Source of the DNA: Ruminococcus sp.
Lineage (GTDB): Bacteria > Bacillota > Clostridia > Oscillospirales > Acutalibacteraceae
Length of the DNA stretch: 64,000 bases
Direction of reading: 5' to 3'
NCBI GenBank assembly: GCA_017404665.1
Contig: JAFRBX010000015.1
Location: forward strand, 85,956 to 149,955
Shown: positions 56,972 through 61,442 of the stretch, piece by piece
Numbering within the stretch: the first letter of the stretch is position 1
How the letters are laid out: every line of letters begins with the position of its first letter
The notes under the pieces: generated by a model
The model's input: the letters and a program-made list of their open reading frames with translations, nothing else
Database searches by the model: none
Told to the model about the DNA's origin: nothing
Program-made: the position numbers and the translations under genes

Positions 56972-58417
56972 TCAATAATAAAAGTAAATCTCTACCGTAC
57001 AATTCTCCCGGTCAAAGATGATCCGGTCGACAAAGCTGTGCAGCAGCGCATTCTTTTCTTCCTCGCTCACAGCGGGGTCCCTGAGCGTCTGTACGGCGTT
57101 TTCGTTTTCTTCGATGATTTTCTTTCGCAGAGCCGCTTCGGTGCTCTGCGGCTTCACTGTCTGCCGCTGCAGGGCGTTGATGCGCTCGTCGATCAGATCA
57201 CGGCTCTCGCGCAGCTCTTCGACAGTGTATACGCCCGCCTCGAACGCTTCCTTGATGCGCGCGTACTTTTTGAGCTCCTGTTCGATCAGCGCTTCGATAT
57301 CGAGCTGTGTCGGCTCCGCGGACGGCTGCGCGTGCTTGACGATGACCTTGAACTGTCCTAAGCGGAATGATGCGTCGATCGCGGCGATGACCATTTCATT
57401 CAGCTTATTGACGGATATGTAATGCGACGTGCTGCACTGCCCTTTGGTGTAGCGGATGCACTGCAGGCCCTGACCGCGCGCGGACATCGAGAGGCTCGCG
57501 CTGCAGTCAGAGCATTTGACCAGACCGTGGAGCATGTACATGTACTTCTTGCCGCGCTCATGCGCGTAGCGGGCGTGCTTCTTTGCGTTGACCTCGTATA
57601 CCGCCTGCACTTTGTTGAAGCTCTCCTCGTCGATGATCGGCTCATGCTGACCGTCGACGATCATGATGTTCGGATCGTCAAAGTTCCGACGCGTCCTGCC
57701 GGTCGGGTTCCAGCGGATCTTGCCGATATAGACGGGGTTGCGCAGGACATAATCAACGGTTCGGTTCTCCCAGCGGTTGCCGCGGGTTGTGCGGACACCT
57801 AGGTCGTTGAGCTTGTGAGCGATCTGCAGGACTCCCATGCCATTGAGATAGTCCGCGTAGATCTGACGGACGATCGGCGCGTTGACGGGGTTGATGACAT
57901 ACTGCTTATCGACGATGTCATAACCGAACGCAGGGATAGATACCGCGCCGCCGCGCTCGACTTTCTCGGTCATGCCGCGCTTGACCTCGCCGGACAGATT
58001 GATGCTATAGAATTCGTCGAACCACTCGATGATGCGCTCGATCAGCGAGCCGAAGGGACCGTCGATGATGGGCTCGGAGATCGATTTGACCTCGATGTGA
58101 TTCTTCGCCAGCATGCCCTTGTAAAAGATGCTCTCCTCCTGGTTGCGGGCGAAGCGGCTGAATTTCCACAGCAGCACCGCAGAGAAGGGGGAGGGCTTTT
58201 GTTTAGCGATCGCGATCATGCGAATGAACGCGGGGCGCTTCTCGGCTTTTCGTCCGGAAATACCGTCGTCGCGGAAGATGTACTCGTTCGGCACGATGTA
58301 GCCGTGCTGCTTTGCGTATTTGCGGATCTCCTTGATCTGAGAATCGGGGGAGAGCTCCGTCTGATTGTCGGTGCTGACGCGAATGTACGCCGCGGCGGTT
58401 TTCAGCTCAATATTCAT
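56972..58417 (-). CDS. Large serine recombinase (site-specific integrase)
   Basis: 481 residues. Catalytic domain (1-150) with the nucleophile Ser in AAAYIRVSTDNQ and the conserved DDGISG and LLWKFSRFARN segments; recombinase domain (about 160-270; GNRWENRTVDYVLRNPVYIGKIRW); zinc ribbon (CSDCSASL...C...C, about 305-335); coiled-coil motif (about 375-440). Typical of phage-type integrases that recombine attP with attB. Transcribed toward cotJC. AGAGGT precedes the ATG. Confidence 0.96.
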   Translation of the reverse strand: MNIELKTAAAYIRVSTDNQTELSPDSQIKEIRKYAKQHGYIVPNEYIFRDDGISGRKAEKRPAFIRMIAIAKQKPSPFSAVLLWKFSRFARNQEESIFYKGMLAKNHIEVKSISEPIIDGPFGSLIERIIEWFDEFYSINLSGEVKRGMTEKVERGGAVSIPAFGYDIVDKQYVINPVNAPIVRQIYADYLNGMGVLQIAHKLNDLGVRTTRGNRWENRTVDYVLRNPVYIGKIRWNPTGRTRRNFDDPNIMIVDGQHEPIIDEESFNKVQAVYEVNAKKHARYAHERGKKYMYMLHGLVKCSDCSASLSMSARGQGLQCIRYTKGQCSTSHYISVNKLNEMVIAAIDASFRLGQFKVIVKHAQPSAEPTQLDIEALIEQELKKYARIKEAFEAGVYTVEELRESRDLIDERINALQRQTVKPQSTEAALRKKIIEENENAVQTLRDPAVSEEEKNALLHSFVDRIIFDRENCTVEIYFYY

Positions 58418-58492: not shown

Positions 58493-58849
58493 TTGCTTGA
58501 TATAGAATTCTATGAAAAGGAAGATGGGACAGAACCCGTCAAAGACTTTTTAGATGGCTTGGATATTAAGATGAGAGCAAAAATGCACTTGTCTATAGAA
58601 TTGCTTAGGAACAATGGTTATCAACTTCGTGAACCCTACTCAAAGACTCTGGATGATGGAATCCTTGAATTAAGAGCGAAAGCAGGGAATAATATTTCTC
58701 GAGTTCTCTATTTCTTTATAGTAGGCAACAAAGCTGTCTTGACGAATGGTTTCATCAAGAAAACAGTTAAAACACCAAAAAATGAGATAGAACGCGCAAA
58801 GAGATACAGAGCTGATTATTTGAGCAGAAAGGAGAATCAACATGACTAA
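58493..58849 (+). CDS. higB: HigB-like toxin of the RelE/Gp49 family
   Basis: 118 residues. MLDIEFYEKEDGTEPVKDFLDGL is the phage Gp49/HigB opening; later LRAKAGNNISRVLYFFIVGNKAVLTNGFIKKTVKTP is the RelE-type core with basic residues. Probable mRNA interferase. TTG start with GGCGGTG upstream. Overlaps the antitoxin by eight bases; AT-rich relative to host genes. Confidence 0.9.
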   Translation: MLDIEFYEKEDGTEPVKDFLDGLDIKMRAKMHLSIELLRNNGYQLREPYSKTLDDGILELRAKAGNNISRVLYFFIVGNKAVLTNGFIKKTVKTPKNEIERAKRYRADYLSRKENQHD

Positions 58850-59114
58850 TTATGATAAATACTTTGCAGAACAAATGAAGAATCCTGAGTTTCGTAAAGA
58901 ATGGGAGTCTCTACAGCCTGAAAGGGAAATCATTCAGGCAATGATCGACGCGCGAAAAGAAACCGGCATGACGCAAAAGGAGCTTTCCGAACGGACCGGT
59001 ATTGCGCAAGGCGATATCAGCAAACTGGAAAACGGAAGCGCGAATCCGTCAATCAGAACATTACAGCGTCTTGCCGCCGGCTTAGGCAAAACATTAAAAA
59101 TCAGTTTTGTATAA
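58842..59114 (+). CDS. higA: HigA-like antitoxin, XRE family
   Basis: 90 residues with a helix-turn-helix (TQKELSERTGIAQGDISKLENGSANPSIRTLQRLAAGL, about 43-80). Binds HigB and represses the shared promoter. GGAG lies before the ATG inside the toxin 3' end. A terminator follows. Confidence 0.92.
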   Translation: MTNYDKYFAEQMKNPEFRKEWESLQPEREIIQAMIDARKETGMTQKELSERTGIAQGDISKLENGSANPSIRTLQRLAAGLGKTLKISFV

Positions 59115-60302: not shown

Positions 60303-60437
60303 ATGGATAAAGAAGCGATGATCGAACACATCAATGCAACACTGGAAAAGGTCGAGGACGAAACGGTATTGAAGGATATGCTGAATCTGATCGACACGGT
60401 TTACCGACATTATCAATCGGGTGACTGGGGGCGCTGA
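60303..60437 (+). CDS. Small helical protein (44 aa)
   Basis: MDKEAMIEHINATLEKVEDE begins a predicted helix pair; it ends YRHYQSGDWGR. AAAGGAG lies about ten bases upstream and a good promoter precedes it. Its last 25 bases overlap the end of the convergent XRE repressor gene. Small helical proteins of this kind often accompany XRE genes in clostridial elements; role unknown. Confidence 0.6.
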   Translation: MDKEAMIEHINATLEKVEDETVLKDMLNLIDTVYRHYQSGDWGR

Positions 60438-60829
60438 TCGGCGTCCCTTATTTTTTTGATCGCTTCGATCGCCATCCGATAGGCTTCGCGCTCGCCGGGA
60501 GCCAGCTTGATGTAGTCGCGGATAAAATCGATATCCGCATCGTTCAGGCTGTACTCCGCCTTCAGCAGCTTGAAAATCGATTCCTCAGATGTAGGATGAG
60601 AAAGAATAGGATTAAACGTACCTATCGGTACGTTTGCTCCCATAAGCCAATCGATTGATACATCTAATGCCTGAGCTATAAGAAAGGTTCTTGTTTGTTT
60701 CGGCTCAAATTTTCCTGACATATATTGACTCATAGCAGATTTACCAATTTTAGTTCTTTGACATAGTTCATGCTGCTTCACGTCTCTAACTCGCATTGCT
60801 TCACAAAGCCTTTCCGCAAAGGTAGCCAT
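60413..60829 (-). CDS. XRE family repressor
   Basis: 138 residues. N-terminal helix-turn-helix (MRVRDVKQHELCQRTKIGKSAMSQYMSGKFEPKQ, about 11-44), then LAQALDVSIDWLMGANVP typical of phage-like repressors, and a helical C-terminus of about 60 residues. Start at 60829 has GAGG upstream; an earlier in-frame ATG lacks one. Candidate master repressor of the element. Confidence 0.88.
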   Translation of the reverse strand: MATFAERLCEAMRVRDVKQHELCQRTKIGKSAMSQYMSGKFEPKQTRTFLIAQALDVSIDWLMGANVPIGTFNPILSHPTSEESIFKLLKAEYSLNDADIDFIRDYIKLAPGEREAYRMAIEAIKKIRDADQRPQSPD

Positions 60830-60854: not shown

Positions 60855-60883
60855 TTGACAATTTTAATTGTAGGGATTATAAT
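60855..60883 (+). promoter_or_regulatory. Promoter of the candidate antisense RNA, with operator palindrome
   Basis: TTGACA (60855-60860), 17-base spacer, TATAAT (60878-60883). The perfect palindrome ACAATTTTAATTGT (60858-60871) overlaps the -35 and spacer, a possible XRE site. Confidence 0.75.
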
Positions 60884-60889
60884 GAGAGT

Positions 60890-60980
60890 GCAAGGAAACA
60901 GCACAGGCTGTTTCGCAGTTCAGTTTTATTATTTTTCAATAACCGTTCTGTACTGGTACTACAGGGCGGTTATTTCTTTA
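60890..60980 (+). ncRNA. Candidate antisense antitoxin RNA of a type I module
   Basis: About 90 bases from a strong promoter to a hairpin terminator. It has a 5' hairpin (GAAACAGC-ACAG-GCTGTTTC) and ends in the shared bidirectional terminator, so its 3' half is complementary to the 3' end of the convergent toxin transcript. It has no ribosome binding site. Confidence 0.55.
60938..60978. terminator. Shared bidirectional terminator of the convergent pair
   Basis: AATAACCG / CGGTTATT outer stem and CTGTA / TACAG inner stem; T-rich on both outgoing sides (ATTTCTTT plus, GAAAAATAATAAAA minus side reading T-poor but AT-rich). Confidence 0.7.
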
Positions 60981-61032
60981 TGCTCAAAACAATAATCGTT
61001 ACTAATAATGCAAAACAAATTATGTATTCCAA
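60970..61032 (-). CDS. Candidate type I toxin, 20-residue hydrophobic peptide
   Basis: TTG start, peptide begins MEYIICFALL and ends SIKK: a single membrane helix with a basic end, like small type I toxins. A strong ribosome binding site (GGGGG, seven bases upstream) is sequestered in the hairpin ACACCC-T-ACGAG-A-GGGGTGT-type, and a promoter (61090-61118, minus) lies upstream. The stop codon overlaps the terminator stem shared with the convergent RNA. Confidence 0.5.
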   Translation of the reverse strand: MEYIICFALLVTIIVLSIKK

Positions 61033-61057
61033 GCAAACACCCCCTCTCGTAGGGTGT

Positions 61058-61095
61058 CGAAACAGCCGCCGCCGTTTCCTTGTGAAGTCATTATA
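61058..61095 (-). repeat. Inverted copy of the antisense-RNA promoter/5' hairpin
   Basis: On the minus strand this 38-base stretch (TATAATGA...CAAGGAAAC...GGCTGTTTCG) matches 60878-60915 on the plus strand at 29 of 38 positions. Thus both convergent RNAs begin with nearly the same -10 box and hairpin. Confidence 0.75.
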
Positions 61096-61118
61096 CTATA
61101 TTGTTTAGAAAAAATCAA
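61090..61118 (-). promoter_or_regulatory. Promoter of the candidate toxin transcript
   Basis: Minus-strand TTGATT (complement of 61113-61118), 17-base spacer, TATAAT (complement of 61090-61095). An operator copy GTTTAGAAAA (61103-61112) lies in the spacer. Confidence 0.65.
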
Positions 61119-61205
61119 GATTTTCGAGAAAATAGTTTAGAAAATTTCGACAAATGTATTGACAAAAGAGAAAACACAGTATATACTTTGTTTAGAAAAC
61201 TAAAC
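61103..61205. promoter_or_regulatory. Three GTTTAGAAAA operator-like repeats
   Basis: GTTTAGAAAA at 61103-61112 and 61135-61144, and the perfect palindrome GTTTAGAAAACTAAAC at 61190-61205. They flank and overlap the divergent promoters at 61090-61118 (minus) and 61159-61187 (plus). The layout resembles phage operator regions bound by XRE/Cro-type proteins. Confidence 0.75.
61159..61187 (+). promoter_or_regulatory. Promoter of the DUF739 gene
   Basis: TTGACA, 17-base spacer, TATACT, with the operator palindrome just downstream at 61190. Confidence 0.8.
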
Positions 61206-61220
61206 GGAAGGAGGATCGAT

Positions 61221-61442
61221 GTGAAACAAAAAATAGCATTTAACTATAGCAAGTTAAGGGGAAGAATACGAGAAAAATGTGGTAGCGATTCAAATTTCGC
61301 AAAGAAATTAGGCTGTAATCATGGTACTCTGTCTTACAAGCTTAATAATATCAGCGAGTTTTCACAAAGCGAGATTTTGAAAGCTATCCGTATTCTTGAT
61401 ATCAAAGAGTCGGAAATATCCGATTATTTTTTTGCTTTGTAA
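61221..61442 (+). CDS. DUF739-like Cro-type phage regulator
   Basis: 73 residues, GTG start with GGAGG six bases upstream. FNYSKLRGRIREKCGSDSNFAKKLGCNHGTLSYKLNNISEFSQSEILKAIRILDI is the DUF739 family pattern, a small helix-turn-helix phage protein. It is the first gene of the plus-strand early operon and probably opposes the XRE repressor. Confidence 0.88.
   Translation: MKQKIAFNYSKLRGRIREKCGSDSNFAKKLGCNHGTLSYKLNNISEFSQSEILKAIRILDIKESEISDYFFAL

Follow-up and report, generated by a model that had tools for sequence, protein, structure and literature searches.

Several type I toxin-antitoxin systems offer points of comparison for the locus analyzed here. In bsrG/SR4, txpA/RatA and bsrE/SR5 of Bacillus subtilis, the antisense RNA overlaps the 3′ end of the toxin message, as would the antisense RNA proposed below. 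In hok/Sok, the full-length toxin message contains a long-distance 5′-3′ interaction, and the antisense RNAs of hok/Sok and aapA/IsoA are placed differently from that of our locus. According to PMC6562991, the SR4 terminator loop first meets loop L3 of the bsrG RNA, then the 3′ part of helix P1 and then the terminator loop of the message. For par/Fst, PMC7472228 gives direct repeats and a PxxxG motif in the toxin as defining features, and describes a 5′ helix that stabilizes RNA I.

Here, we analyzed a locus in the window, i.e., the whole stretch of 64,000 nucleotides of Ruminococcus sp. DNA under study. A preliminary description had proposed a convergent type I toxin-antitoxin locus, compared it with par/Fst and txpA-ratA, and suggested that hairpins of its two RNAs could kiss. 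We consider it probable that this is a compact type I toxin-antitoxin locus with a bsrG/SR4-type layout, for which we infer transcription, read-through, toxicity, antisense action and the part of RNase III from the sequence. The core of the earlier proposal was retained, as the peptide, the ribosome-site hairpin and the antisense promoter and terminator are kept in many loci, whereas its par/Fst and kissing parts were not.

Layout of the window locus

The predicted parts of the locus are as follows.

60855-60883, plus: antisense RNA promoter TTGACA-17-TATAAT, perfect consensus (scan 12/12)
61090-61118, minus: toxin message promoter TTGATT-17-TATAAT (scan 10/12)
60878-60915 and 61058-61095: 38-nt inverted repeat, 76% complementary (29/38)
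60889-61083, minus: proposed toxin message, 195 nt, from about its own +1 to the complement of the antisense +1 (predicted ends)
61058-61082, minus: 5′ strand of a 5′-3′ long-distance helix (window fold, covariation in relatives)
60891-60915, minus: 3′ strand of the same helix (window fold, inverted repeat)
61036-61058, minus: hairpin masking the ribosome site AGGGGG (61045-61040) (fold)
60970-61032, minus: ORF of 20 codons, MEYIICFALLVTIIVLSIKK, TTG start at 61032-61030, stop at 60972-60970
60938-60974: shared stem, predicted as antisense RNA terminator and as internal stem-loop of the toxin message (scans, fold)
60890-60981, plus: proposed antisense RNA, about 90 nt (promoter and terminator scans, fold; predicted ends)

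These parts include the two facing strong promoters of the preliminary description (plus 12/12 at 60855-60883, minus 10/12 at 61118-61090), its minus RNA with a hairpin-sequestered ribosome site and a 20-residue peptide, and, as predicted by the 12/12 plus promoter and a plus-direction terminator, its short plus-strand RNA overlapping the minus message. The mirrored 5′ ends that it had noted correspond to the 38-nt inverted repeat, which spans both −10 boxes and the first transcribed bases. Promoter-like sites numbered 3 in the 402 bp scanned versus 1.1 (sd 1.0) after shuffling, and 8 versus 5.5 (sd 2.1) in a wider 2.2 kb; because of the latter count, the 10/12 minus promoter alone is unremarkable. 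The AGGGGG sequence is located 7 nt upstream of the TTG start, within the predicted hairpin. In the minimum-energy fold of the window toxin message, the 5′ end is paired with the 3′ end. A local hairpin of the 5′ helix strand represents an alternative fold, and the complement of the 3′ helix strand is the 5′ block of the antisense RNA, which is predicted to consist of this 5′ hairpin block followed by the terminator stem.

The cassette family, its peptide and the shared stem

We searched for related loci using AARAARTAACCGYCC, which comprises the last codons, stop and stem of the window locus. It occurs 6 times in the window's genome versus 0 for the reversed control, and its stricter form, ATHAARAARTAACCGYCC, yielded 36 sites in 20 of 300 family genomes with a control count of 0; therefore, the locus pattern exceeds chance. 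Most ATHAARAARTAACCGYCC sites examined lie at the end of a short, hydrophobic ORF preceded by a strong ribosome site, and three (L009, L010 and L011) have no such peptide ending there. A 21-base form of the pattern matched 83 stretches in named contigs, with hosts including Ruminococcus bromii, many uncultured Ruminococcus and Clostridia, and Butyrivibrio.

A total of 167 distinct pattern sites were collected, with identical stretches counted once (some contigs occurred in two genome sets); 93 carried one of two conserved leaders and 74 carried neither. Class A, the window type (leader GGCGGYTGTT), comprises 76 sites, 75 of them with a peptide, which is 20-29 residues long; the label is set by the leader motif, whose conservation in this class is thus by construction. 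Class B (leader ACGGTAGGCGGT) accounts for 17 of the 167 sites and is present in the window's genome as well (L002, L007 and L008). Both blocks were found in 72 class A rows, 67 of them distinct. Alignment A1 holds 57 of these 67 as contiguous native DNA and leaves out 10 loci, mostly tandem near-copies (one from L027, four from L040, two from L041, and L083, L103 and L126), and alignment A2 holds 16 class B loci. The loci of this family are related to each other rather than independent.

Several individual loci deserve mention. Four in the window's genome (L003, L005, L007 and L008, on contigs C19, C39, C69 and C75) have the same stop-codon stem and peptides ending in FTHKK, with the usual start region seemingly missing in L005. 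Tandem copies were also observed: six class A copies form an array within 2.7 kb at L040 and three cassette copies lie in tandem at L041, both in genome G030, and the third tandem copy at L028 (genome G298) has neither the 5′ part nor a start codon.

A wide spread of class A was considered and rejected, since the leader matched 11 of 398 phylum genomes (window included) versus 8 for the reversed control, mostly noise. Among 39 stretches in viral contigs, six carry a locus whose leader is of class A or B (L129, L132, L133, L150, L159 and L161); the others were set aside as chance or unclassified. Known phages gave two weak Enterococcus phage matches, at query positions 300-356 of 392 on the promoter side beyond the cassette, and known plasmids gave no match to the locus. 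Scans with Pfam, NCBIfam and Rfam provided no name for the cassette family, and no description of it was recognized in the titles and abstract openings searched, a scope that leaves subscription papers mostly outside.

The peptide frame, on whose preservation in homologues the preliminary description had staked its proposal, is kept. For the window-type (MEYIICF) peptide, pN/pS is 0.133 among 17 distinct relatives, and the variable sites of these 17 sequences number 9, 2 and 15 at codon positions 1, 2 and 3; judging from these substitutions, the peptide is under purifying selection. In the 57 relatives, the five counted pairs of the ribosome-site hairpin are 91.2% paired. The window peptide has the hydrophobic, lysine-ended form that is typical of type I toxins (PMC8309996), and contains no proline and no glycine, so that PxxxG is absent. 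It has no Pfam or NCBIfam match, including to Hol_Tox (PF16935). A weak, sub-cut-off Hol_Tox match (E 0.003, 17.8 bits; Pfam cut-off 23.3) was obtained with a 33-residue peptide at the paralogous locus L008 in the window's genome.

The stem at 60938-60974 begins at the stop codon of the toxin ORF. It had been described as a shared bidirectional terminator, a claim that was not confirmed for the window: the window stem passed the terminator scan in the plus (antisense) direction only, and the minus strand beyond it reads GAAAAATAATAAAA. Under a tolerant scan, 71 of 71 class A relatives passed on the antisense side; the sense-side test was passed by 31 of these 71 and by 8 of 17 class B loci. 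A sense terminator at the shared stem is therefore possible in some class A relatives, and none was seen in the window by the terminator scan. The tolerant scan also flagged the ribosome-site hairpin in the window leader (61056-61038), and its next site on the window sense strand is at 60643-60606, within the repressor gene. Among 65 class A loci, sense terminator-like sites were found 40-59 and 60-79 nt past the helix in 11 and 13 loci, respectively (2 and 2 in a single-shuffle control), and class A had 14 such sites at the last 20 nt of the helix versus 2 after shuffling. Seven close relatives, including the window, have no sense terminator-like site within 110 nt past the helix. The toxin message would be one that reads through the shared stem, which, by comparison with PMC6562991, may be the counterpart of loop L3 of the bsrG RNA.

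Neighboring C-G pairs of the shared stem in alignment A1 (columns 181/204 and 183/201) are each lost in 21 of 57 loci. The stem looks as if it were kept imperfect.

The mirrored 5′ ends and the prophage-like setting

Within loci, the two RNAs have the same base at 538 of 660 positions of their first 12 nt in 55 distinct pairs, compared with 423.6 for permuted partners (sd 10.5, maximum 463 of 3000). For the tail outside the hairpins alone, the agreement is 232/275 versus 162.1 (sd 6.6), and 14 class B loci gave 122 versus 100.4 (sd 4.2) and 95 versus 80.6 (sd 3.2). Such co-variation is not required of two RNAs that only have a sequence in common. If the message extends to the complement of the antisense start, its own 5′ and 3′ ends would pair and the 5′ blocks would hence co-vary.

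RNAalifold recovered this 5′-3′ helix from alignment A1. Across the 57 read-through messages, pairing reaches 97.9% of its cells, versus 90.2 (sd 0.4) after shuffling and 38.0-53.0 after sliding, and 111 cells are doubly changed (shuffled 34.8, sd 5.6). The non-Watson-Crick cells comprise 119 G-U and 11 A-C, a G-U share of 0.915 versus 0.713 on average and at most 0.739 after shuffling. In the aligned count, tail deviations are also mostly G-U (17 versus 6 A-C, share 0.739 versus 0.549 shuffled); the opposite bias, A-C over G-U, would be expected were the antisense strand the pairing one. A first, unaligned count of G-U against A-C had been weak (58:29 versus 95:64 permuted at all positions, 19:11 versus 35:31 in the tail). 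In a thinned set of 20 sequences below 75% identity, doubly changed cells number 42 versus 12.3 (maximum 23) and the G-U share is 0.915 versus 0.715. The helix of 16 class B loci is 90.8% paired versus 82.2, with 33 doubly changed cells versus 10.4. Moreover, all 67 native class A messages and all 16 class B messages have a closed minimum-energy fold, compared with 62 of 201 class A messages in which the last 30 nt were shuffled.

The local structures are conserved as well. The local 5′ hairpin is 98.5% paired with 14 doubly changed cells versus 2.2, and the ribosome-site hairpin and shared stem together are 90.3% paired versus 88.4 with 19 doubly changed cells versus 4.0. The unpaired probability of the ribosome site is 0.057 with and 0.032 without the 3′ end, i.e., the site is predicted to be closed both ways; thus, the 5′-3′ helix is not what hides it. 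From these data, a single helix that has the mirrored 5′ ends as its two sides is a better reading than hairpins that kiss. The conserved local hairpin agrees with the earlier suggestion of kissing, but kissing does not appear to be the main reason for the mirror and was rejected as the sole one: co-variation extends to the tail beyond the hairpins (232/275 versus 162.1), where sense-strand deviations are predominantly G-U (17:6).

The locus lies inside an apparent on/off switch of an integrated virus-like element, whose relevant features are listed below.

60413-60829, minus: CI-like repressor gene downstream of the toxin (HTH_3, Phage_CI_repr; PHROG transcriptional regulators and repressors)
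61221-61442, plus: divergent DUF739 gene
61101, 61133 and 61188, within 61101-61199: three TTGTTTAGAAAA-like repeats (family D1), operator candidates

The toxin promoter is placed between the repressor gene and the divergent DUF739 gene, the site expected for a repressor-maintenance promoter; in the analogy with phage lambda, it occupies the place of that promoter. One of the TTGTTTAGAAAA-like repeats overlaps the toxin promoter, one lies between the promoters and one follows the −10 box of the divergent gene. They are placed as operators would be and are putative operators.

An HTH gene above cut-off is next on the toxin strand in 7 of 10 close relatives (window, L061, L095, L117, L129, L150 and L161). 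L075 and L085 have a weak, sub-cut-off Arc-like match in the gene after the toxin on the same strand, and in the tenth, L051, the available sequence ends before the downstream gene. Divergent Cro-like genes were above cut-off in the window (DUF739), L117, L129 and L161, and below it in L095. L129, L150 and L161 are viral contigs, of which L129 and L150 are nearly identical in this region. The regulators differ among close relatives and the cassette is kept between its promoters. A family-wide link to a downstream repressor was rejected, since the next gene in 75 class A loci was on the same strand in 28 and on the opposite strand in 42, with none in 5. The repressor placement is limited to the window's close relatives and is not general in the family.

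One possibility, which we put forward tentatively and hold to be somewhat less than an even chance, is that, in prophage-like elements of Ruminococcus relatives, the repressor operon acquired the cassette as its first cistron, so that one RNA, from a promoter at the repressor-maintenance position, serves toxin and repressor and the toxin terminator was lost; the antisense RNA, with its start a short way upstream of the repressor gene, would silence the toxin and may trim the repressor message. If true, lysogeny control and addiction would form one circuit, and cells losing the element or the antisense RNA would be poisoned by the very transcript that keeps lysogeny. At this locus, the unusual putative wiring of a toxin-antitoxin pair into the promoter of a prophage repressor can be put to the test.

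Two other features were observed nearby. A FuFi-1 RNA (RF02986, 61471-61629, minus, 121.5 bits, cut-off 59.6) is located just past the DUF739 gene and faces it; as a part of the system it was rejected, being absent at the gathering score from L061, L075, L085, L095, L117, L129, L150 and L161. At 58493-59114 (plus), a Gp49-like (DUF891) gene is followed by an overlapping HTH gene, which looks like a type II toxin-antitoxin pair, presumably of the HigB/HigA type, and adjoins the large serine recombinase of the element (56972-58417, minus).

Competing explanations, proposed mechanism and comparison with known systems

Three other explanations bear on this evidence. We regard as unlikely a par/Fst-like module with one bidirectional terminator for both RNAs and with kissing between identical 5′ hairpins and between terminator loops. 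It would account for the convergent promoters, shared stem, masked ribosome site and small hydrophobic peptide, and is consistent with the relatives passing the tolerant sense-side terminator test (31/71 class A, 8/17 class B) and with the conserved local 5′ hairpin (98.5% paired, doubly changed 14 versus 2.2). However, the window stem lacks a sense-side terminator, the repeats are inverted rather than direct, PxxxG is absent, the tail outside the hairpins co-varies, and the deviations have a sense-strand G-U bias. That the mirrored blocks are instead DNA features, either protein-binding palindromes close to two promoters or an inverted repeat homogenized by template switching, with RNA pairing as a by-product, seems highly improbable: sense-strand G-U deviations of 119:11 are not predicted by DNA alone, and the antisense loop is never GGCGG in 67 pairs, so the blocks are not simple copies. 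The cassette also retains its blocks next to unrelated regulators, and operator-like repeats are present with a different sequence, although the 5′ blocks are indeed palindromic and placed after the −10 box, and homogenization could yield the within-locus likeness of inverted repeats.

A same-strand HTH gene follows in the window and six others of the ten loci compared, and seven loci examined have no sense terminator-like site, as would also be the case if the 20-codon ORF encoded no toxin but a leader peptide for the repressor gene, with the antisense RNA acting on repressor synthesis only. Yet no more than 28 of 75 class A loci have the downstream gene on the toxin strand, which makes the cassette a free-standing unit elsewhere, and the peptide is conserved as a protein with the hydrophobic, lysine-ended form of type I toxins (PMC8309996). 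We give the leader-peptide explanation very little credence.

In the preferred reading, a bsrG/SR4-type toxin-antitoxin locus, the parts supported by the comparative data are the peptide, the ribosome-site hairpin, the antisense promoter and terminator, and the covarying 5′-3′ helix. The minus promoter would produce a message for a 20-residue membrane peptide, with the ribosome site within a hairpin. This message would pass the shared stem and end near the antisense start, and a helix of about 20 pairs between its 5′ and 3′ ends would keep it closed and stable; the helix would thus serve message stability and antisense contact, not ribosome-site masking. From the strong plus promoter, an antisense RNA of about 90 nt would be transcribed up to the shared stem, whose stem-loop would make the first contact with the message. 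Because the antisense 5′ block copies the message 5′ block, it could then displace the latter from the 3′ end and open the helix, and the resulting antisense/message duplex would be a substrate for RNase III. Should the antisense RNA disappear, as on loss of the element, translation of the remaining message would yield a peptide that harms the membrane. The repressor gene, too, is probably transcribed from the toxin promoter in the window's subgroup. This mechanism offers a simple explanation of the mirrored 5′ ends, namely that the antitoxin copies the message 5′ block and can compete for its 3′ end.

Among known systems, par/Fst (plasmid pAD1) is similar in its convergent promoters, common stem, ribosome-site hairpin and small membrane peptide. 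It differs in that its direct repeats DRa/DRb produce complementary 5′ regions, whereas the inverted repeats here make the 5′ ends alike; the only direct repeat family over the mirrored block (D2) is a self-complementary hairpin (75%). In addition, the window locus has neither PxxxG nor a sense-side terminator. Given the inverted repeats and the peptide without PxxxG, the par/Fst comparison of the preliminary description was abandoned. A 5′-3′ long-distance interaction also occurs in the full-length toxin message of aapA/IsoA of Helicobacter pylori (PMC6733600). The long-distance folds of aapA/IsoA and hok/Sok mask the ribosome site, whereas a local hairpin appears to do so here.

The txpA comparison proved sound, given the bsrG-type order of parts and the weak matches of the BsrG model on sister loci. 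The Rfam BsrG model (RF01412, cut-off 55 bits) gave no match to the window region at E up to 1. On sister loci at L013, it matched end to end at 34.0 bits (E 4.9e-6), below the cut-off of 55. In nine genomes chosen for holding family loci, the model hit 28 places at E up to 1, none above the cut-off and 9 of them on ATHAARAARTAACCGYCC sites; two places were in the window's genome, both away from the window locus. Matches were obtained in 2 of 14 control genomes, one of them B. subtilis. Because the model misses the window and its sister matches are sub-cut-off, membership in bsrG/SR4 is not claimed. The four tandem loci at L013 (1371-2627) have sub-cut-off BsrG matches that are end to end or nearly so. 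They are candidates for a bridge between BsrG of B. subtilis and the cassette family.

Compared with bsrG/SR4, the toxins of B. subtilis have 28-60 residues (PMC6563280) versus 20 in the window and 20-29 in class A, and the antisense RNA here has about 90 nt and two stem-loops versus four in SR4. Moreover, the 3′ side of the closing helix is here the exact complement of the antisense 5′ block, unlike in bsrG/SR4. Like the bsrG message (PMC6562991), our message would pass through the antisense terminator stem, and the two systems further share a ribosome-site hairpin, a membrane peptide with a lysine-rich end and a frequent prophage location. The 5′/3′ closing helix (P1 in the bsrG RNA) is predicted and covarying here, assuming read-through, and the antisense RNA is predicted by the scans to end at its own terminator inside the message. 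The order of parts, shared stem and then closing helix, is also the same. By this analogy, the window locus would work like bsrG/SR4 and may be a distant relative of it, and the cassettes would be very small type I toxin-antitoxin loci whose family extends the bsrG layout to Ruminococcus and other Clostridia.
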